From Chloroflexota bacterium (lineage in GTDB: Bacteria; Chloroflexota; Chloroflexia; QHBQ01), in contig JANXYP010000061.1 in the NCBI GenBank assembly GCA_025355955.1, positions 1 through 42,118 of the forward strand: a stretch of DNA of 42,118 nt, given 5' to 3'. Made by a program: the position numbers and the translations under genes. Within the stretch, counting starts at the first letter, position 1. Each line of letters starts with the position of its first letter. This document shows positions 29,609 to 40,590 of this stretch, piece after piece. The notes under the pieces are model-generated. The model worked only from the letters and a program-made list of their open reading frames with translations, did no database searches and was not told the DNA's origin.

Positions 29609-29637
29609 TTGACGCTTACTCACAGGCTAGCTACAAT
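29609..29637 (+). promoter_or_regulatory. Promoter of the GT87-like gene
   Basis: TTGACG, 17 bp, TACAAT. The expected +1 is at about 29644, giving a leader of ~47 nt with AGAGG 8 nt before the ATG at 29691. Confidence 0.75.
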
Positions 29638-29690
29638 TGTATATATCGAAGCGAAACGCCGATAAATCCGTTGCTGAAGAGGATGTACTA

Positions 29691-31769
29691 ATGCCTGAAG
29701 GCACTGACCGGACGACAGAAGGCGCGCCATTCGTGCGTATACTTGAAAGTGGCGCATTGCCGATGGTGGTGTTCACGCTTGCCTGCGTCTGGCTGGCGAT
29801 GCTGCTGGCCTTCCAGCAACCATATTCTTATACCCTCGATGTTAGCAAAGCTCACCCTGGCGAAACGACCGGCTTCAGCCCCATAAAAGATCTGGGTCAA
29901 CCCGGCTACCTGTGGGGAAGCCAGTATGCCTCGCTCGATCTAGCTTCTCCGGGCAGCCCTTCGCAGATAACCATCCGTCTCGGTGGGCGCAGCGACGGTG
30001 CAGTTATCCCTTTCACCCTCAACCAGAAGCCGCTTGGCTCCGTCACCTTGCCAGGCGATGGCTCGATGATCACCCATACCTTCACTCTGCCCGCTTCGCT
30101 TATTAGCCGCGATGACTTGCACCTCGGCATCGTCGCCCCCGTCCTCAAAGCAAACAATCAGCGGCTTAGTGTGCAGGTAGACACCGCAACCATAATCAGT
30201 AACCCCTCCCTCGACCTCGCCTGGCCGCCCACTGGCGCAGCACTGGTCGCTACGTTGGCCGCCTTGCTGCTTGCTATGCTGGGTTGGCAGTTGCACAGCC
30301 CTGGGCGCTGGTTCGTGCCGGTGATGGGCGCGATCGCCTTGTACCTGCTGATGGTGGGGCGGGCCAACATTATCGTTCCTCTGCTGCTTTTCTGCGCTGC
30401 TCTGTTGCTGCTGCTGGTAGCGGTTAGCGGGGTCTGGCGCGTCTTGCGAGTCAGGCGCGCCTGGCTACCCGACTTGCGCTCCGGCTTGATACCAATCAGT
30501 TTCAAGCGCCTGCCCAGCCTGGTGCTGGCGAATGGGCCGGAGACAATGCCACTGTTTCGCGTCGCGCTCATCTTCGTTATTCTGCTGCAGATACCGCTCT
30601 ACGGTCGTATGATGGACAGTGCAGAAGTTCCCATCAACTTTTATTATTTCGTTGGTTTGCTGTTGGTGGCTGTGGCTTTTGTGCTGCGTGGGCGCTATAT
30701 AACCCTTGCTCTAGTCGGTGCGATGGTAGTAGCTGGAGTCTTGCTCCGCCTCTACTGGGCTAATCTGCCAACCACTAGCGATGTCTACTGGGCTAACACC
30801 CAGGCTTGCTACTTCATCCTGCACGGGCGTAACCCCTACGCTGAGATATTTACCTGGGTGCCGGGTGGTCAGGTTTATCCCTGGTATGGCTACTTCCCCT
30901 TCACCATCTTCAGTCAATTGCCATTTTATCTGCTTGGCGATGTGCGCTGGGGTCTTGGTCTCTACGATCTGGCAACCATTGCCTTGCTCTACCTGATGCT
31001 GCGTCGCCGTTGGGGGTCGGAAATTGGGCTGGCGGTTGCCAGCTTGCTGCTCCTCTATGTGCCTTTCTCTGATTTGACTATTTTCCCCGGCATCGTCGAC
31101 CCGGTGATGGTGTTCTGGCTGGCGTTGTCATTCTATCTGCTAACTAAAGAGCAGTGGATGTGGGCAGCAGTGGCAGGCGGTTTGGCCTTGGCCAGTAAAC
31201 AGTATGCTGTCTTTTATGTCCTCGCCCTGCTTGCATTCTTCGTCAAGCAGCGGCGCTGGCGCGAAGCAGCCATCCTGGTAGTGGTGCCAGCGATTATCAT
31301 TGTGCCATTCTTCCTCTGGTCGCCCGCCGATTTTATTGGCGATACGATTCAGCTGCACCTGAGTTGGTATCCAGAACCCACACCGGGATCCTGGAACGTA
31401 TCAATTTGGGCGCAGGGGGTTGGTGTGTTTAACGGCGGTGCGCCAGCAGCAGTGGCGCTCAAGCCGGTTGCCAGCATCATCGAGCTGCTGATCCTAATTG
31501 CGGTTGCCATAGTCAACCTGCTGCGCCCTACGTTGCCCCAGGTGATTGGCACCACCACGGTGCTGATGGCGATTGCCTTCGGCCTGAACAGTAACAACAC
31601 CCAGTATTTCTACTGGCGCGATGTCGCGCTTCTACTGATTATATGGGCAGCCGTCTGGCAGCCAGCGTCTGGCCTCCAACCCACAACCGAGCTTTCCGTG
31701 CCGAACGAGCCCGCCCCTGCGCTTCTTCCTGAAAAACAAGCCGCGCAGGTTGCACTCAGCGCAGAATAA
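29691..31769 (+). CDS. GT87/DUF2029-like membrane glycosyltransferase
   Basis: 692 aa from the ATG at 29691 (a TTG at 29637 lies in the promoter and is rejected). Helix 1 (~25-45) is followed by an extracytoplasmic beta-rich domain of ~130 residues, then about 12 membrane helices. DVYWANTQACYFILHGRNPY (from ~364) puts an Asp and the GRNPY motif where GT-C/GT87 enzymes have them, and LASKQYAVFY is a further family motif. It probably transfers a sugar from a polyprenyl-phosphate donor to an envelope glycan. It is the first gene of the glycan region. A broken copy of its 3' end lies at 34572-34851, which shows that this gene and its neighbour were duplicated together. Confidence 0.8.
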   Translation: MPEGTDRTTEGAPFVRILESGALPMVVFTLACVWLAMLLAFQQPYSYTLDVSKAHPGETTGFSPIKDLGQPGYLWGSQYASLDLASPGSPSQITIRLGGRSDGAVIPFTLNQKPLGSVTLPGDGSMITHTFTLPASLISRDDLHLGIVAPVLKANNQRLSVQVDTATIISNPSLDLAWPPTGAALVATLAALLLAMLGWQLHSPGRWFVPVMGAIALYLLMVGRANIIVPLLLFCAALLLLLVAVSGVWRVLRVRRAWLPDLRSGLIPISFKRLPSLVLANGPETMPLFRVALIFVILLQIPLYGRMMDSAEVPINFYYFVGLLLVAVAFVLRGRYITLALVGAMVVAGVLLRLYWANLPTTSDVYWANTQACYFILHGRNPYAEIFTWVPGGQVYPWYGYFPFTIFSQLPFYLLGDVRWGLGLYDLATIALLYLMLRRRWGSEIGLAVASLLLLYVPFSDLTIFPGIVDPVMVFWLALSFYLLTKEQWMWAAVAGGLALASKQYAVFYVLALLAFFVKQRRWREAAILVVVPAIIIVPFFLWSPADFIGDTIQLHLSWYPEPTPGSWNVSIWAQGVGVFNGGAPAAVALKPVASIIELLILIAVAIVNLLRPTLPQVIGTTTVLMAIAFGLNSNNTQYFYWRDVALLLIIWAAVWQPASGLQPTTELSVPNEPAPALLPEKQAAQVALSAE

Positions 31770-31830
31770 GCGCGGTTTGTCGTGGGCTTTGCTTTGGGTA
31801 AGCAGTTATAGGGTGCAATTCATCAAATTG

Positions 31831-31980
31831 CACCGAGTGTGTGGCGTAGGGGCGGATTGCGTCCGCCCTGGTGAGGATAGCACCGAATGTGTGGCGTAGG
31901 GGCGGATTGCGTCCGCCCTGGCGGGGATGGCACCGAATGTGTGGCGTAGGGGCGGATTGCGTCCGCCCTGGTGGGGATAG
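31831..31980. repeat. Tandem array, 3 x 50 bp, of a core-palindrome variant
   Basis: Units 31831-31880, 31881-31930 and 31931-31980 are each exactly 50 bp and nearly identical. Each holds GTAGGGGCGGA-TTGCG-TCCGCCCTGG, a perfect 7-bp hairpin with the outer bases of the dispersed core but other arm sequences. The array lies in the 300-bp gap before the first YfhO-like gene and immediately upstream of its promoter. It is absent from the duplicate copy of this region near 34.84 kb. Confidence 0.93.
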
Positions 31981-31981
31981 C

Positions 31982-32010
31982 TTGCTTACAGCAAGCCTAC
32001 ATTGTATAAT
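31982..32010 (+). promoter_or_regulatory. Promoter of the first YfhO-like gene
   Basis: TTGCTT, 17 bp, TATAAT, expected +1 at about 32017, leader ~53 nt with AAGGAG before the ATG. The duplicate upstream of 34912 keeps the TATAAT (34847-34852) but has no matching -35. Confidence 0.65.
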
Positions 32011-32138
32011 CACGGAGCCGCTTTGCCTGCAGGCCGCACCTTGCCCCAGAATGAGAAGGAGAATGTCTAATGTTCAAACGCCCGCGCCTGATCGATAGCG
32101 GCGTGCTGTTTGTTTACACCCTCATCAGCATAGTGATG
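32000..32138 (+). repeat. 139-bp near-identical leader and 5' coding repeat, copy 1
   Basis: From CATTGTATAAT through codon 23 this copy differs from 34842-34980 at only 3 of 139 positions, while the coding sequence after it differs at roughly a third of positions. Confidence 0.93.
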
Positions 32139-34514
32139 ACCTGGCCAGTGACGGCCAACCTTCGCGGTGGCTACACCCTCTTCGGCTCACCTGATGAGTA
32201 TATGTTCGTGTGGGGATTCTGGTGGATGCATTACTCACTGGCCGATCTGCATACTTGGCCATACCACACTAATATGCTCTATTACCCCTTCGGCACTGGC
32301 CTGGCATTCCATACCGATACGCCGCTTATTACCCTACTATTCAGCCCAATTACGGGCGCGTCGGGTCCAGCCGTTGCCTACAACCTGGCGATCCTGGTAT
32401 CATTCATCTTCTCCGCCTTCAGTATGTACCTGCTGGTCAATTACCTGGTGCGCGACAAACGGGCAGCGTTCTTCGGTGGCATCGTCTTCGCTTTCTCCAC
32501 CTTCAAGTTCATGCAGGCCGCTGGCCACATACATATAGTCAGCACTGAGTTCTTCCCTATATATGTCCTTTTCTTCATCTTGATGCTGCGGGAGCCAGCC
32601 CACCGCCATCGCTATGCGCTGTTCGCTGGGTTGAGCCTGGGCTTCGTCTTTCTGATTGACTACTATCAGACCGTCTACGCGATGTTCTTCTCGATCTGCT
32701 ACCTTACTTACTACCTGTTCGGCAAGGCTGGCGCGAACCCGCCAGCGAACGGCGAGCCATCGCCCACCCCAGCGCCAGTAGAAGCGGCAACCGCAGGTGA
32801 AGCGCAGCTAACCTCTACCGACGAGCTGCCATATCTCGCCCCGCCACCAAGCGCGGTTCATGGGCTGACGACCATAGGCACGCGGCCTGCCAGCCGGGGC
32901 AGCCTGCGGCTGTTCGCTGGTCGGCGGCTGTTCAATCGAAAGGTGGTGCTATCCACCGTTGGTCTACTAGCGATATTGGGGGTCGTCTTCCTGATTATCG
33001 GCTCGCCGTTGCTCTATGCCGATTATAGTGACATTACCAACGGCTATTACGTCAAGTGGGGCGGCGAGGATATCTTCTATGCCGACATGGCGGGCTTCTT
33101 CGTGCCGTACACTCCGCTGCTAAGTAATTATGTCGTCGCGCATCTAAACGCCCTGATCATTGGTCCGGCTGGACCCGAAGCAGTGGTCTACGCTGGCTGG
33201 GCGGTCATCATCCTGGTGGCGATCGGCACCCTGCGGCTGACGCGCCGCCTGATCGGCTTCCGCTTCTGGCTTGTATTCATCCTTATCTGCTACGTATTCG
33301 CCTTGGGGCCGCAGCCTCACTTTCTTGGCACCGCCCTGCCCATCCCCGGCCCTTATGCGCTATGGGCGCAGATCCCGCTGCTCAACAACGCTCGCATCCC
33401 CTCGCGCTTCGACCTGCTGATCACCTTTGCCGGTGGAATATTGGTTGCCTACACAATTCGTGACCTGCTCACCTCGATACCGCAGCGCTGGCCGCGCATC
33501 AAGCAAGGGGCGCTGGCGATTGCCTTCCTCGTCCTGCTCACCCCGCTGATGCTGCTCGAAAATCTAGTTATGCCCCTAGCCACCCAGGGCTATCATCTGC
33601 AGGAGCCAACCGCCGCCTTCGCCCAGATTGCCGCCGACCCAAGTGACGGCGCGGTTCTCGACTTGCCACTGGATGGCGCAAACATCCACGATAGCATTGA
33701 GCATATCATGTATGAGCAAACCCTACATCAGAAGTTCGCCTTCAGCGGCAGCATCTCGCGCCCGCTCCCTGAGTTCAATCAGTATTACGGCAATGATGAG
33801 TATATCAGCCTATTTGACACCGACCCAACTGGCAAGGCTAAGGGCGGGGATCAGATCGAGCAGGTACTGACTAACACCAAGGCGATGAACTTCTACCGTC
33901 ACGATGCGGCGCAGCTTGCCTACTACCTGGATGTGCATTACATCATTGCCCATCCCGCCAGTATGCCATTGAAGGCGCTACAGTTTCTCAGCGAAACCCT
34001 GCCGCTGGAGCAGCTAAATCCCCAGAATGCGGCAACTGGCAACGAGGTGGTTTATCGGATACGCACCGACCTAATCGCCCCGCTGGTGGAAACCAACACA
34101 ATTCAGTTGGGCGGCAAGGGTGCTGCTATATTCCGGCTGATGGGCTGGTATGAGCCTTATACAGATCAAGCCGGGGGATTCAACTTTGCCTGGCTGGGAA
34201 CGGCCAGCGGCCAACTGCTCACCACCGTGCGCGACCCGGCCGATTACACCGTAGCGGTGCAGTTGCAGCCGATGATAGTGAACAACCGCCCGCAGACCCT
34301 TACCATCTATGCAAATGATGAGACCAGCCCTGTCGCTACCTTCCAGTTGTCGAAATACGAATGGCAGCAGCGCAGCTTTGTGATCAGCCGCGAACACTGG
34401 CGCAGCGGCATCAACACCCTGCACCTGACCATGACCTATGCGACCAAGCCCGGCAACGGTGATAATCGCAGCTACTCGCTTGGGGTTAGGAGTATCAGCT
34501 TCATAGCCAAATAG
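32070..34514 (+). CDS. YfhO/GT-C-like multi-spanning membrane protein, paralogue 1
   Basis: 814 aa. About 12 membrane helices in residues 8-500. The first loop carries GSPDEYMFVWGFWWMHY (~39-55) with acidic residues where GT-C enzymes bind metal or donor, then YYPFGTGLAFHTDTPL. A Pro/Ala-rich cytoplasmic loop (~220-275, PANGEPSPTPAPVEAATAG) is not present in the paralogue. The C-terminal ~300 residues are extracytoplasmic. They include RPLPEFNQYYGNDEYISLF and end in a beta-sandwich-like domain (YTVAVQLQPMIVNNRPQTL ... SLGVRSISF). It is probably a glycosyltransferase or glycan-modifying enzyme; I cannot name the reaction. AAGGAG precedes the ATG. About 60% similar to 34912-37242. Confidence 0.75.
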   Translation: MFKRPRLIDSGVLFVYTLISIVMTWPVTANLRGGYTLFGSPDEYMFVWGFWWMHYSLADLHTWPYHTNMLYYPFGTGLAFHTDTPLITLLFSPITGASGPAVAYNLAILVSFIFSAFSMYLLVNYLVRDKRAAFFGGIVFAFSTFKFMQAAGHIHIVSTEFFPIYVLFFILMLREPAHRHRYALFAGLSLGFVFLIDYYQTVYAMFFSICYLTYYLFGKAGANPPANGEPSPTPAPVEAATAGEAQLTSTDELPYLAPPPSAVHGLTTIGTRPASRGSLRLFAGRRLFNRKVVLSTVGLLAILGVVFLIIGSPLLYADYSDITNGYYVKWGGEDIFYADMAGFFVPYTPLLSNYVVAHLNALIIGPAGPEAVVYAGWAVIILVAIGTLRLTRRLIGFRFWLVFILICYVFALGPQPHFLGTALPIPGPYALWAQIPLLNNARIPSRFDLLITFAGGILVAYTIRDLLTSIPQRWPRIKQGALAIAFLVLLTPLMLLENLVMPLATQGYHLQEPTAAFAQIAADPSDGAVLDLPLDGANIHDSIEHIMYEQTLHQKFAFSGSISRPLPEFNQYYGNDEYISLFDTDPTGKAKGGDQIEQVLTNTKAMNFYRHDAAQLAYYLDVHYIIAHPASMPLKALQFLSETLPLEQLNPQNAATGNEVVYRIRTDLIAPLVETNTIQLGGKGAAIFRLMGWYEPYTDQAGGFNFAWLGTASGQLLTTVRDPADYTVAVQLQPMIVNNRPQTLTIYANDETSPVATFQLSKYEWQQRSFVISREHWRSGINTLHLTMTYATKPGNGDNRSYSLGVRSISFIAK

Positions 34515-34571
34515 CAATCGCCCCAGCTCTTTTGCCTGCATATAGCGTGGGGCAGCCACGGTGTTCGCGTG

Positions 34572-34851
34572 CATCTGATTGCGGTCGCCATCGTCAACTT
34601 GCTGCGCCCTAGCTTGCCCGCAGGTGATTGGTACCACCACGGTGCTGACGGCGATTGCCTTCGGCCTGAACAGCAACAACACCCAGTATTTCTACTGGCG
34701 TGATGTGGCGTTGCTGCTGATTATATGGGCAGCAGTCTGGCAGCCAGCGCCTGGCATCTGGCCTGCCACCGAACTTCCCGCGCTGAACGATTCCCCGCCT
34801 GCACTGCTCCTTGAAAAGCGGGCTGGGCAGGTTGTACTTAGCATTGTATAA
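34572..34851 (+). pseudogene. Truncated, frameshifted copy of the GT87-like gene 3' end
   Basis: Matches 31492-31758 at roughly 85% of positions. The N-terminal four fifths of the gene are missing, and one extra base near 34618 (TTGCCCGCAGG against TTGCCCCAGG) shifts the frame. Readable residues include VIGTTTVLTAIAFGLNSNN and YFYWRDVALLLIIWAAVWQP. The frame now ends in the TAA of TATAAT at 34849. It is the left end of the duplicated segment and is not expected to be functional. Confidence 0.92.
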
Positions 34852-34980
34852 TCACGGAGCCGCTTTGCCTGCAGGCCGCACCTTGCCCCAGAATGAGAAG
34901 GAGAATGTCTAATGTCCAAACGCCCGCACCTGATCGATAGCGGCGTGCTGTTTGTTTATACCCTCATCAGCATAGTGATG
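34842..34980 (+). repeat. 139-bp near-identical leader and 5' coding repeat, copy 2
   Basis: Partner of 32000-32138, with the same 70-nt distance from CATTGTATAAT to the ATG and 3 mismatches overall. The sequence upstream is the pseudogene tail instead of the 50-bp array. Confidence 0.93.
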
Positions 34981-37242
34981 GTGTGGCCTGCTGTAGCCAA
35001 TTTGCGCGGTAACTATGGGCTTATCGGTGCGGTTGATGTGTATATGTTCATGTGGGGGTTCTGGTGGATGCACTACTCATTGGGAGTCTTGCATACGTGG
35101 CCCTTTCACACTACCATGCTTTACCACCCCTTCGGCACCGGCCTCTCCTTCCATACCGATACGCCGCTGATTACCCTACTGTTCAGTCCAATTACCGGCG
35201 CGTATGGCCCTGAGTTTTCATACAACCTTGATGTTATTATCTCCTTCATTTTCTCTGCTTTTAGTATGTACCTGCTGGTTAACTACCTGGTTGGCGATAA
35301 ACGAGCGGCCTTTCTCGGTGGCGCAGTCTTTGCCTTCTCTACCTTCAAGGCGGTACAGACAATTGGGCATCTGCATATCACTAACACCGAGTTTTTCCCC
35401 ATATATGTCCTTTTCTTTATCAAGATGCTGCGTGAGCCGAAACATCAGCTTCGTCATGCCATCTTTGCCGGTCTCTCACTTGGCTTCGTCTTTTTGATTG
35501 ATTACTATCAGACTGTATACCTAATCTTCTTTTCAGTTTGCTATCTGATTTATTACCTGTTTAACTATCGCAATGACCCCAGCATCGTGCTAGGCGCGGT
35601 TGCACGGCCCTTCCAGAACACAATTACCTGGTTGCATGAACGCTACTTCGCCGATCGTAGCACCTTGTTTGCTTTGCTACGACGGCTACTAGTGCTGGGC
35701 CTTGTGTTTATAGTAATCGGTTCGCCACTGCTGATTGCGATCTACAGCGATATAAAAGCAGGTTATTACGTAAAGTGGGGTGGGGAAGACATATTCTACG
35801 CGGATATTGCTGGATTCTTTGTGCCGGTCACCCCATTGCTGAGTAAGATACCTGGCGTGGCCCAAGCCAACGTGCCAATTATCCATGCGGGAGGCACCGA
35901 GTCCCTCGTTTATGCGGGCTGGGTGGTGTTGTTGCTGGTTGCCTTTGGCACGATGCGCCTAGCGCGACGCTTGAGCGAGTTTCGTTTTTGGCTTGTCTTC
36001 ATCATTATTTGTTTTCTATTCGCCTTGGGCCTGCAACCGCACTTCCTCGGCTATACTCTGCCCATCCCTGGACCATATGCGCTGTGGGCGCAGATACCGT
36101 TCCTCAACAATGCCCGAATTCCTTCCCGCTTTGATCTGCTTGTCACTTTTGCGGCTGGGATATTGGTGGGTTACAGTGTAAAGGAACTTCTAGCCCTACT
36201 AATCAATCGCCTACCTTCATTCCGTCCCGCTTTGCTTTCGGCGATTCTCCTCGTGCTTATCACCCCGCTAATGCTCGCCGAGCATTACGTGCTACCACCG
36301 CTGCTCCCTGGCGAGGAGTTGAAGGAGCCGCGCGATACCTTCGCGCAAATTGCTGCCGAGCCGGGTGACTTTGCAGTCCTCGACCTACCCCTTGATGGCC
36401 CTGCCACCCCGCACTATGGGCTGGAACACATTATGTATGAGCAAACCATGCACCATAAGAATGCAGTAGGTGGTAGCATCTCCCGTCCGTTGACCGATTT
36501 CTACGCATATTACGGTGGTGATGAATATATTGATTTGCTGAACTACGCGCTACCTAAAACTCCGCACCTCGCTGATGTTCGGGTCGTACTGAGTAACACC
36601 AAAGCAATGAATTTCTATCGTCACGATGCGGCCAATCTAATTTACTATCTCGACATCCATTACCTGATTGTTCGCCCCACCGTCCTGCCCACTAATGCTC
36701 TCAGCTTTATTCAGCAGACCCTACCTGTAGATCAGGTTTATCCCCCGGCGGGTGAGCCAGTAAGCGACACCGTAATCTATCGTGTGGACCCACAGGCAGT
36801 TGCGTCTCTAGCTGTTACGGATACAGTAGATATAGGTAGTAATTTGGGCAATGTGTTTCGCTTGCGGGGTTGGGGTGCGCCACAGCCTGGTTCAACCGAG
36901 GGGTTTCATTTCGCCTGGGCGCAGCAGGTAGAGAGCGAAGTACTCACTTCTGTGCGTAAGCCGGATAACTATACGGTTACGCTAAAGCTGCGCCCGCTAA
37001 TTGTGAACAATCAGCCACAGACACTTACTATATATCTTAACGATGAGACCAATCCCGCCGCAATCATCCCAATGTCTAACCCTGAATGGCAGGAGCAGAG
37101 CGTAGGCATCAGTCGGGAACACTGGCGCGAAGGTATCAACACGATGCGCTTGCGAATGACCTATGCGGCGAAACCCGGCAATGGAGATCCGCGCACCTTG
37201 TCGTTGGCGATCAATACAATCAGGTTTACGCCAAATAAGTAA
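34912..37242 (+). CDS. YfhO/GT-C-like multi-spanning membrane protein, paralogue 2
   Basis: 776 aa, same plan as paralogue 1: ~12 membrane helices, the first-loop motif with VYMFMWGFWWMHY (here AVDV replaces SPDE, so one acidic residue is lost), FGTGLSFHTDTPLITLLFSPITG, shared VKWGGEDIFYAD, then an extracytoplasmic C-terminal region ending in a beta-sandwich-like domain (YTVTLKLRPLIVNNQPQTL ... LSLAINTIRFTPNK). The low-complexity loop of paralogue 1 is replaced by a shorter, ordinary loop. Codon use is more A/T-rich than in paralogue 1. It uses the same ribosome-binding site. Likely a related but distinct substrate or donor. No terminator is obvious before the convergent lipoprotein gene. Confidence 0.75.
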   Translation: MSKRPHLIDSGVLFVYTLISIVMVWPAVANLRGNYGLIGAVDVYMFMWGFWWMHYSLGVLHTWPFHTTMLYHPFGTGLSFHTDTPLITLLFSPITGAYGPEFSYNLDVIISFIFSAFSMYLLVNYLVGDKRAAFLGGAVFAFSTFKAVQTIGHLHITNTEFFPIYVLFFIKMLREPKHQLRHAIFAGLSLGFVFLIDYYQTVYLIFFSVCYLIYYLFNYRNDPSIVLGAVARPFQNTITWLHERYFADRSTLFALLRRLLVLGLVFIVIGSPLLIAIYSDIKAGYYVKWGGEDIFYADIAGFFVPVTPLLSKIPGVAQANVPIIHAGGTESLVYAGWVVLLLVAFGTMRLARRLSEFRFWLVFIIICFLFALGLQPHFLGYTLPIPGPYALWAQIPFLNNARIPSRFDLLVTFAAGILVGYSVKELLALLINRLPSFRPALLSAILLVLITPLMLAEHYVLPPLLPGEELKEPRDTFAQIAAEPGDFAVLDLPLDGPATPHYGLEHIMYEQTMHHKNAVGGSISRPLTDFYAYYGGDEYIDLLNYALPKTPHLADVRVVLSNTKAMNFYRHDAANLIYYLDIHYLIVRPTVLPTNALSFIQQTLPVDQVYPPAGEPVSDTVIYRVDPQAVASLAVTDTVDIGSNLGNVFRLRGWGAPQPGSTEGFHFAWAQQVESEVLTSVRKPDNYTVTLKLRPLIVNNQPQTLTIYLNDETNPAAIIPMSNPEWQEQSVGISREHWREGINTMRLRMTYAAKPGNGDPRTLSLAINTIRFTPNK

Positions 37243-37321
37243 TCAAATATGCCAGTTGAGCTAAAGTGCAAGCCCCTGAATCACGTTTGATACTTTATAC
37301 CTTTTGGTCATATGCCTTGTG

Positions 37322-39121
37322 CTACTTACTTACCTTTGGCACCTCAGCAGGTGGTGGAGCGGTGAAGGGAACTGGTAGGGGCAGATGCTGATATACCGCT
37401 GGCGCACTGAAGGTGTCCTGCACTACCTTGCCACCTGGGTAGACAAACAGACGTTGTGCATGGTCGCCATTGCCAAACAGGATTGCCTGCTCCAATGATC
37501 GTCCATATATTCCACTGAACACTCGCTCCAAAATCTTGTCGTCGGGCCAAAAATAGTTGATCCAGTAATTGTTTCCCCGCTTCAGCAGTACAGGTGTCTT
37601 GTCCTTGCCATCGTTAGCGTAGAGCAATACCTCGGTGCTGCTGTTAGGTTTGATGTCCATCACATCATCTCGGGCTTCCACTGTTTCCAGCTTAACGCTC
37701 TGTACATCTACTATATCAACCTTGCGTCCACGACTGTTATAGTTGGTGCTATCGGCAAAATAGCTGGTCATATCGTTATTGCTGTTGACTAGTGGGTGGT
37801 AGAAGATAATTTTCTTGCTACCAGCCAGTTTGCTGAGTTCAGTATCCAACGCCGGGTTTGAGCGCTGCATTGATACTATCATGTCGTATCCGGCAAGATC
37901 TTCTGGCTTCACCTCGCTTGCAAGCTTGAAGTCGGCCTGAGGAATATAACGACGGAAAGGGAACATTACCGCCATCTCCTCAGCCGAATCGTGCCAATCT
38001 TTCTTGGCTGAGTTGCCGCTAAAATCGTCGGTAATTAGGAGGGTGCGAGGCAGAATGCGCTGACTGTTCTCCTTTATATCCTTAATCATCGCCTTCACCA
38101 GATTAAAGCGCGTATCGCCATAGGTCTCATCTGGCATGATGTTCGCGCCTTCATAATACTCATTCCAGTCATAGATAAACACTAGCTCTGGTTCACTATA
38201 CTTAGCTAGCCAGTACATCTCCTGGATATAGCGAGGATCGTCACGGATTACCCGCATCAGGTTGAAGAGGTGCTGCACACCCAGATTATCGAAGTTGACG
38301 TTCCAAGAGACCTCATTGTGGCCGATCTGATGCTGCATACTGTCCATCACGAAGTTGAAGGGGCGGATGTTCTGCGGAAAATGCTGGAAACCGTACTCCA
38401 AAGACCAGATATTAATCGCAGTGATATACAACACTACGGGGTGGCCTAGGTTCTTCTCCAGATTGCTGATTAGCGTTTGATAGAATTGCTGCCAGGCCTG
38501 TGGGGTATTACTGGTGCTGGAATCAAAGCCGAAGGCAAATATCATGATCGGCATCTGCCCATGCTTATCAATTAGCCATTGCTCCTTGGGCAGGTAGGAA
38601 TAAAACTCGGTTATCTTATTGACAACGGTGTTGGCGATTGCCACATCGGGCTTGACGTATATCTTGTCGCCAGGCTCTGGTCTGCCGGGGGCATTCTCCA
38701 GCGCCCAATCATAGAACGCCCCCACCTTGATGTTATGTCGTTTGATCGAGGCTGTTTCGATGTCGCTGGGGTGAATCATTTTGCCACCCAAAATATTGGT
38801 TTCGTAGGAGATGCCATCCACGCCTAGTCGGTTTAGGAAGTCGAACTGATTATCGTAATATTTAGCGGTGCGATCCACATCTGATGTGCTAAGGCCATAC
38901 TTGGCCCAATCTATCTTATGAGTCCAGCCCGATCCATTGATCGGCCAAGGCTGCCTGGCATACCAGTCGAAGAAGTGAATAGTAAAGGTAGGCGGTTCCA
39001 CCCTCTCTCCGCTGGTTGAAGCCGTGGATGTAGGTGTAACGGGAATTGGTGTGCTGCTATCACAGCCAATCGAGGTAAGCAGTATTACGATTGCTACTAC
39101 CCGACAACATAGTTTTTTCAA
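37322..39121 (-). CDS. Lipoprotein with GH99-like (WbsX/endo-alpha-mannosidase-like) catalytic domain
   Basis: 599 aa. The lipoprotein signal has Cys20 in LLTSIGC, then a Ser/Thr-rich tether (~21-42). Residues ~45-355 resemble the GH99/WbsX-type barrel: FFDWYARQPW (50-59), VDGISYETN (101-109), and DWNEYYEGANIMP (318-330), which matches the WNEWxEGxxxEP signature. Residues ~358-480 look like a Rossmann-type domain (RTLLITDDFSG, GYDMIVSMQRSNP, KIIFYHPLVN). The start is TTG at 39121 with AGGAG 8 nt upstream; a closer ATG at 39126 is out of frame and stops after two codons. It would act on mannose-type glycans on the cell surface. A TTGACC-17-TATAAT promoter lies upstream. Confidence 0.75.
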   Translation of the reverse strand: MKKLCCRVVAIVILLTSIGCDSSTPIPVTPTSTASTSGERVEPPTFTIHFFDWYARQPWPINGSGWTHKIDWAKYGLSTSDVDRTAKYYDNQFDFLNRLGVDGISYETNILGGKMIHPSDIETASIKRHNIKVGAFYDWALENAPGRPEPGDKIYVKPDVAIANTVVNKITEFYSYLPKEQWLIDKHGQMPIMIFAFGFDSSTSNTPQAWQQFYQTLISNLEKNLGHPVVLYITAINIWSLEYGFQHFPQNIRPFNFVMDSMQHQIGHNEVSWNVNFDNLGVQHLFNLMRVIRDDPRYIQEMYWLAKYSEPELVFIYDWNEYYEGANIMPDETYGDTRFNLVKAMIKDIKENSQRILPRTLLITDDFSGNSAKKDWHDSAEEMAVMFPFRRYIPQADFKLASEVKPEDLAGYDMIVSMQRSNPALDTELSKLAGSKKIIFYHPLVNSNNDMTSYFADSTNYNSRGRKVDIVDVQSVKLETVEARDDVMDIKPNSSTEVLLYANDGKDKTPVLLKRGNNYWINYFWPDDKILERVFSGIYGRSLEQAILFGNGDHAQRLFVYPGGKVVQDTFSAPAVYQHLPLPVPFTAPPPAEVPKVSK

Positions 39122-39191
39122 AACATATTCTCCTGGTTAGCAGGGATTGGCAGCCGGAAACCTTATTGCTCAGTTAATGTTTGCTGGGTGC

Positions 39192-39220
39192 ATTATATAC
39201 CAGCGCACTGCGTCGGTCAA
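39192..39220 (-). promoter_or_regulatory. Promoter of the GH99-like lipoprotein gene
   Basis: On the minus strand TTGACC, 17 bp, TATAAT. The leader is about 64 nt. Confidence 0.78.
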
Positions 39221-39243
39221 GCGTTGCCGCTCTCGCACTGCAC

Positions 39244-39272
39244 TGGACAAGCACGGGGGATTCTGCTAGAAT
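39244..39272 (+). promoter_or_regulatory. Promoter of the methyltransferase gene
   Basis: TGGACA, 17 bp, TAGAAT. The leader is ~52 nt with GAAAGGAAAAC directly before the ATG. Divergent from the lipoprotein promoter. Confidence 0.7.
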
Positions 39273-39330
39273 ACTGCTGCCCAACAGATTACCACTGTAG
39301 GAGACTAGGAGAAGTGCCGAAAGGAAAACT

Positions 39331-40590
39331 ATGCCGAAGATTACCCGCCGCATGATCAGAGATTATCTCGCTACATTCGAGTGGTTCAGGGAGCCGGTCA
39401 AACAAGGATACCTGAATCAGGCAATCGATCGCTTTACTCATACCTTGAACATTATTCCCCGACTGCCTAACCCTGAGCAGGTTAGGGTATTGGAGATCGG
39501 CGGTCAACCCTACTTCATGACTGTGCTGATCGCCAAATTCTTTGGCTACCAGGTCGAGGTTATAAACGAGCCATCGCCGAATAGCACAGAGGGCGACAAC
39601 CACCATAGGTTGAATAACGATCTAGGCGAGACTTATGATATAACTTTCAAGATGGCAGACATTGAATATGATAGCTGGCCTTATAAAGATGACACATTTG
39701 ACCTTGTGATTTACTGCGAAGTGCTAGAACATCTCGTTTACGACCCAACCCACACGCTGGTCGAAGCACATCGTGTGCTGAAGAAGGATAGCGGCAGGTT
39801 GCTACTTAGCACCCCCAACGCGCTCACTGTTATGGCACTAATACAAATGATAAAAGGCGACAACTTTTTCCCGCCGTATGATGGGATTAATTACCATGCT
39901 CGCCACCACCGCCTATTTAGCACCGACGAGCTTATTCACCTACTGCAGAAGATAGGCTACGAGGTTAGTGCTTGCTACGCCGCCTACGACGACTCCTACT
40001 TTCACCCTTCCAGGCTTGACAGGTTGATTAAGTTTGCCGCAAAGCGCGGATTGTTGAAGAAGCGTCTAGACGTTATCTATGCGCTAGCCAAGCCGGTCGG
40101 CGAACCGCGCTACATATATCCGGATAGCCCGCCTTTCATTATTTATGCAGATGTGCAAGGCTATCGGCGCATTGCACGTAGCTCGATGAAGATGTCTGAT
40201 GAGGAGTCGGCGCAATTGGTAGATGGCTTCCACCAGCTTGAACACTGGGGCGGTGGTCTGCGCTGGACTGGTAAAGTTGGTCGGCTGTTCCTGCGCTACA
40301 CCAACCAAACGACCCTCTCCATACATTTCTACAGCGGACAAGCGTATCGCGGGCCTGAGGTGCGTGGCACGATAATCATCGGCGATCAGTTCCGCCAGCG
40401 CGAGGAGAGGCATCCGTTTGCTGTTGCCAGCCACGATTGGTACACACTTACCTTCCCCCTGCCGGAGAATCCGCCCAGCGAGTTGCTAGTTACCATTGAG
40501 ACAGATAACCCTATGATACCGGCACAGATGTCAAATACGCCCGATGACCGCGAAGTTGGGATTGCGATAAAGGAAGTAAAACTTTTGTAG
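39331..40590 (+). CDS. SAM-dependent methyltransferase with C-terminal beta-sandwich-like domain
   Basis: 419 aa. The class I methyltransferase domain runs from ~45 to ~220: VLEIGGQPYF (motif I, SAM binding), VEVINEPS (acidic end of strand 2), MADIEYDSWPYKDDTFDLVIYCEVLEHL (motifs II/III) and HRVLKKDSGRLLLSTPNALT. After ~275 comes a beta-rich domain with LRYTNQTTLSIHFYSG and a final DDREVGIAIKEVKLL, a type often attached to glycan-biosynthesis enzymes. It probably methylates a sugar of an envelope polysaccharide. A close paralogue begins at 42039. The gene is convergent with the acyltransferase gene. Confidence 0.87.
   Translation: MPKITRRMIRDYLATFEWFREPVKQGYLNQAIDRFTHTLNIIPRLPNPEQVRVLEIGGQPYFMTVLIAKFFGYQVEVINEPSPNSTEGDNHHRLNNDLGETYDITFKMADIEYDSWPYKDDTFDLVIYCEVLEHLVYDPTHTLVEAHRVLKKDSGRLLLSTPNALTVMALIQMIKGDNFFPPYDGINYHARHHRLFSTDELIHLLQKIGYEVSACYAAYDDSYFHPSRLDRLIKFAAKRGLLKKRLDVIYALAKPVGEPRYIYPDSPPFIIYADVQGYRRIARSSMKMSDEESAQLVDGFHQLEHWGGGLRWTGKVGRLFLRYTNQTTLSIHFYSGQAYRGPEVRGTIIIGDQFRQREERHPFAVASHDWYTLTFPLPENPPSELLVTIETDNPMIPAQMSNTPDDREVGIAIKEVKLL

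Follow-up and report, generated by a model that had tools for sequence, protein, structure and literature searches.

A near-identical promoter and gene-start tract in two diverged tandem paralogs of a Chloroflexota bacterium: old duplication and probable recent gene conversion

Organisation of the locus

The window analysed here is a stretch of 42,118 nt from a Chloroflexota draft genome. Two homologous genes, G1 and G2, lie in tandem in it, together with a third gene, X, and a remnant of a second X copy, X′. The relevant features are:

29637–31769, + strand: gene X, upstream of copy 1; 710-aa multi-pass membrane glycosyltransferase-like protein (GT87 / PMT_2; ORF and Pfam)
31812–31983, + strand: dispersed intergenic repeat made up of a hairpin, GGTGCAATTCATCAAATTGCACC, and three units of ~50 bp whose palindromic core is GGGGCGGATTGCGTCCGCCC; at copy 1 only; 46 matches in the genome
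32000–32069, + strand: leader of copy 1, 5′ half of the putatively homogenised tract; 100% identical to 34842–34911
32070–32138, + strand: codons 1–23 of copy 1, 3′ half of the same tract; dS 0.065 versus copy 2
32070–34514, + strand: copy 1 (G1), 814-aa multi-pass membrane protein, putative GT-C-like glycosyltransferase (ORF and family comparison)
34575–34841, + strand: X′, the 3′ end of a second X copy, without the 5′ part; 84% identical to 31494–31759
34842–34911, + strand: leader of copy 2, identical to that of copy 1; TATAAT at 34847–34852
34912–34980, + strand: codons 1–23 of copy 2; 66/69 nt identical to copy 1
34912–37242, + strand: copy 2 (G2), 776-aa paralog of copy 1 (ORF); 62% amino acid identity overall

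Gene X gave Pfam matches above the cut-off to GT87 (2.1e-07) and PMT_2 (7.6e-07). G1 and G2 matched no Pfam or NCBIfam family and no meaningful relative in the PDB, and a three-sequence AlphaFold model of the G protein reached a pLDDT of 37.5, too poor for use. The large family of multi-pass membrane proteins to which they belong is present in 88 of the 158 genomes of the class. Outside their own genome the best protein match had an E-value of 1.4e-33 and ~31% identity, the compared genomes being no closer than class, and a protein search of genome contigs for relatives returned one distant Bacteroidales locus only. Residues P26, D42, W48 and W52 near the N-terminus are conserved in the family, as is the peptide L.DSGVL..YTLIS.VMTWP, the latter at the amino acid level only. 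The neighbouring genes (X, polysaccharide export and acyltransferase genes) make a role in envelope glycan assembly likely.

Contigs C354 and C93 of the same genome carry the nearest paralogs, which keep the N-terminal peptide in part. The one on C93 also contains, at L011:2115–2537, about three copies of an in-frame, near-repeated peptide, PAPSPSRWEGSA..GGGRERELAVQ, which looks like a repeat of the intergenic type inserted in coding sequence. G2 and the next two genes (34912–40587) have a third-position GC content (GC3) of 0.57–0.60, compared with 0.80–0.82 for rpoB and rpoC, and this stretch was possibly acquired or recently rearranged.

Extent and edges of the near-identical tract

Positions 32000–32138 and 34842–34980 (offset 2842) are identical at 136 of 139 positions, and our count agrees with the three differences reported in the initial annotation. 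The block was described there as a 139-bp leader and start; the length holds, with 70 nt of leader, containing the −10 box TATAAT and the ribosome-binding site, and 69 nt for codons 1–23. All three mismatches (copy 1/copy 2: 32074 T/C, 32086 G/A and 32117 C/T) fall within the coding part, where two of the three are non-synonymous (F2S and R6H), and the untranslated parts are identical at 70 of 70 positions. By two-segment changepoint analysis the right edge lies at 32138 (support 32132–32138). Windows of the same size elsewhere in the G1/G2 pair have at least 23 mismatches each, versus three in the tract, and the observed near-identical run was matched in 0 of 50,000 permutations.

The fall at codon 24 to roughly two thirds, noted earlier, is also right, since the bodies are 73% identical at codons 24–219 and 60.5% identical beyond. 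Synonymous divergence follows the same course, with dS values of 0.065 for codons 1–23, 1.56 for codons 24–219 and ~2.0 for the remainder. Among degenerate codons that specify the same amino acid in both genes, 18 of 19 are identical in codons 1–23 versus 73 of 140 in codons 24–219 (Fisher p = 3e-4). Such values fit no single age, as had been argued.

A duplicated X tail upstream of the leaders

The initial annotation had missed a duplication upstream of the tract: the last 266 nt of X before an indel (31494–31759) recur directly before leader 2 as the X′ remnant. X′ carries a 1-nt frameshift near 34620, and apart from it (match 34603–34842) the genome shows no other trace of X. Since the X tail is repeated before leader 2, the duplicated unit comprised X and G, not G alone. 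Substitutions in the X tail number 9, 9 and 24 at the three codon positions; since X under constraint by itself would yield much the same distribution, these counts are compatible with a functional as well as a non-functional X′ during most of the divergence. The dS of the X tail is 0.44 overall, 0.30 in the first 177 nt and 0.79 in the rest. Because this is a third, intermediate divergence, at least one further event is needed beyond duplication and conversion. Once the X tail is taken into account, the divergences call for two or more events after the duplication, or else for a single event combined with strong constraint.

The two copies also differ in what precedes the leader. In copy 2 the X′ remnant adjoins CATTGTATAAT with no gap, whereas in copy 1 the homologous end of X and CATTGTATAAT are separated by 240 nt, including the dispersed repeat, which copy 2 lacks. 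In copy 1 the left edge of the tract is therefore the edge of a heterologous stretch.

Promoters and the dispersed repeat

The copy 1 leader has its −10 box at 32005–32010, a 5′ UTR of ~55 nt and a ribosome-binding site, AGAAGGAG, at 32054–32061. Its motif GCCTRCATTGTATAAT also precedes pyrF on contig C93, and the likeness continues upstream (GCCTA followed by CATTGTATAAT in copy 1 versus GCCTG followed by CATTGTATAAT before pyrF). Thus GCCTACATTGTATAATCACG of copy 1 is close to GCCTGCATTGTATAATAGCG before the pyrF-like gene, which was named by eye from its sequence; exact searches of the genome for this promoter pattern matched these two places only. Copy 2 departs into X′ exactly at CATTG, and a possible −35 element for it, TGGGCA at 34824, lies inside the X′ remnant. 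Both promoters probably work.

The dispersed palindromic repeat is built on the core GTAGGGGCGGATTGCGTCCGCCC, to which a GGTGCARTTCATCAAATTGCA arm is often added, and occurs as one to several tandem units, also at L012:2698–3080 (contig C93) and at L068–L087. TATAAT is found 36–64 nt downstream on the same strand in 15 of 22 inspected arrays and upstream in none of the 22; the background frequency in the window, taken over 130-nt stretches, is 3.8%. The repeat may mark, insulate or regulate promoters, and it looks more interesting than the shared leader itself.

Selection, grafting or assembly error as explanations

The tract could be identical because selection acts on the nucleotides of promoter, leader and first codons, which would form a regulatory RNA or a translational start element common to both genes and peculiar to this pair. 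The leader does include a plausible −10 box and ribosome-binding site, and it has remained unchanged at all 70 positions while the adjoining X tail is 84% identical. The earlier proposals of this kind, a regulatory RNA or a nucleotide-constrained start of membrane insertion, nevertheless fared poorly. Folding of the UTR is weaker than that of shuffled controls (z = +1.80 and +2.10), and an Rfam search of the leader matched no family. A search for other genes with the leader, which the initial annotation had suggested along with a look at RNA structure, found only the two copies: there was no third in the genome (the assembly is 84% complete), none in 400 sampled genomes of the phylum, and no match to the exact 39-nt leader pattern when genome contigs were searched for close relatives. 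We considered whether the leader is a dispersed element and rejected this, reading as chance a 47-nt match on C361, which is 83% identical with two gaps and lies opposite an alpha-galactosidase-like gene on the other strand, as well as two matches of 24–27 nt in other genomes. The C354 and C93 paralog loci have no match to the leader, the C354 gene starting 4 nt inside the end of the preceding gene, and we rejected a family-wide 5′ constraint on this ground. Over the same 23 codons, the C354 gene, the nearest paralog, is 65–67% identical to G1/G2 at the nucleotide level with a dS of 1.45–2.15. Synonymous change in the codons of this peptide has thus reached saturation, and nothing in the family keeps these nucleotides fixed. 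A 5′ patch is not a general habit of tandem members of the family either, since, in other genomes of the class, a 5′ identity spike was lacking in all five tandem pairs from the broad family that had detectable nucleotide homology (a sixth pair had no such homology). Selection would, moreover, have to freeze synonymous sites as far as codon 23 and then stop abruptly, while the changes that the tract does contain are confined to its coding part and two of them alter the protein. Nucleotide constraint on the tract is poorly supported, and from the sequence comparisons we favour recent homogenisation over selection, which we hold to be unlikely. The left end of the tract coincides with both the indel and the −10 region of the promoter, which selection could also explain.

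We consider it just as unlikely that X tail, leader and 23 codons were grafted together, by one recombination or duplication, before a G2 body that differed in age, with decay of the X tail afterwards. In copy 2 these three elements are contiguous and all less diverged than the body, and a decaying X′ would account for the frameshift. However, the X tail and the tract are unequally diverged (42/264 versus 3/139, p = 8e-6), also when the X tail is counted at its first two codon positions only and set against the leader (18/176 versus 0/70, p = 0.002), and constraint on the leader would be needed in addition. The initial annotation had offered recombination joining a leader to another body, which is mainly gene conversion in other words; this inequality disfavours its one-event form including the X tail. 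A somewhat more doubtful reading takes the 139-bp block as a maintained constant 5′ module of promoter, leader and membrane-anchor start, which recombination would keep identical so that both genes are expressed in concert, their bodies being left to diverge or to undergo replacement. Least probable is an assembly artefact, with reads from the two 5′ regions merged or wrongly joined owing to their similarity. The genome is a draft of 420 contigs, 84% complete with 3.5% contamination, yet merging predicts 100% identity and three distinct differences remain; the flanks of the two copies are completely different, and X′ is a separate sequence of 84% identity, hence no product of collapse.

Discussion

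Taken together, the pair carries a mosaic of divergences with sharp edges, and its leader is absent from the other loci and genomes searched. We propose, with a probability of about 0.79, that a two-gene unit was duplicated in tandem long ago and that a short gene conversion took place recently, with copy 1 as the more likely donor and copy 2 as the recipient. The duplication would have produced X-G1 followed by X′-G2, after which both G genes would have been retained, diverging to synonymous saturation, and X′ would have been truncated at its 5′ end and frameshifted. A short non-reciprocal recombination, either gene conversion or its equivalent through strand-invasion or template-switching repair, would then recently have copied ~139 bp between the genes, taking in the −10 box, 5′ UTR and ribosome-binding site together with codons 1–23. 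The copied tract would be limited on the left by the end of upstream homology and on the right at about codon 23–24. A low-divergence tract bounded in this way against its flanks (dS 0.065 versus 1.56; changepoint at 32138) is what gene conversion leaves, and recent conversion of the 5′ ends, the first option of the initial annotation, is supported by the dS mosaic, the changepoint and the permutations. The conversion is inferred from one genome because the compared genomes are no closer than class.

As to the probable direction, GC3 in codons 1–23 compared with the body is 0.74 versus 0.57 in G2 and 0.78 versus 0.71 in G1 (p = 0.07). This sequence composition, and a promoter that continues upstream only in copy 1, are no more than suggestive of G1 as the donor to G2.

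Families of surface-antigen genes that undergo cassette switching have constant 5′ ends and variable bodies. G1 and G2 resemble them in that the start is constant and the body differs. Unlike such systems, there are only two copies here, each with a promoter and start, and no silent cassette or further copy sharing the 5′ end was found in the 84%-complete assembly.

Closer to our case, short tracts are copied between bacterial paralogs among the esx, PE and PPE genes of Mycobacterium tuberculosis (PMC13061034), where short, sharply bounded near-identity likewise occurs between otherwise diverged paralogs on one chromosome. The present case differs in that it involves only one pair, from a draft genome with no close relatives among those compared, and in that the tract spans promoter and gene start while the copies are ~60–75% alike elsewhere. 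Recombination tracts in E. coli were estimated at 50 bp on average, and at 120 bp in an earlier MLST-based estimate (PMC2617782); a tract of 139 bp is within this order of size and unremarkable in length, although the E. coli estimates concern exchange between strains and the present one concerns paralogs of one genome.

The near-identical 5′ ends of G1 and G2 most likely reflect gene conversion as an ordinary process, not a special regulatory RNA. They also serve as a warning that near-identical 5′ ends of diverged paralogs are not to be taken for a regulatory element before synonymous sites and outgroup paralogs have been checked. Within a single genome, the locus offers a clean example of patchy conversion between tandem paralogs of old origin, in which three ages lie adjacent: the X tail, the leader with the gene start, and the body.
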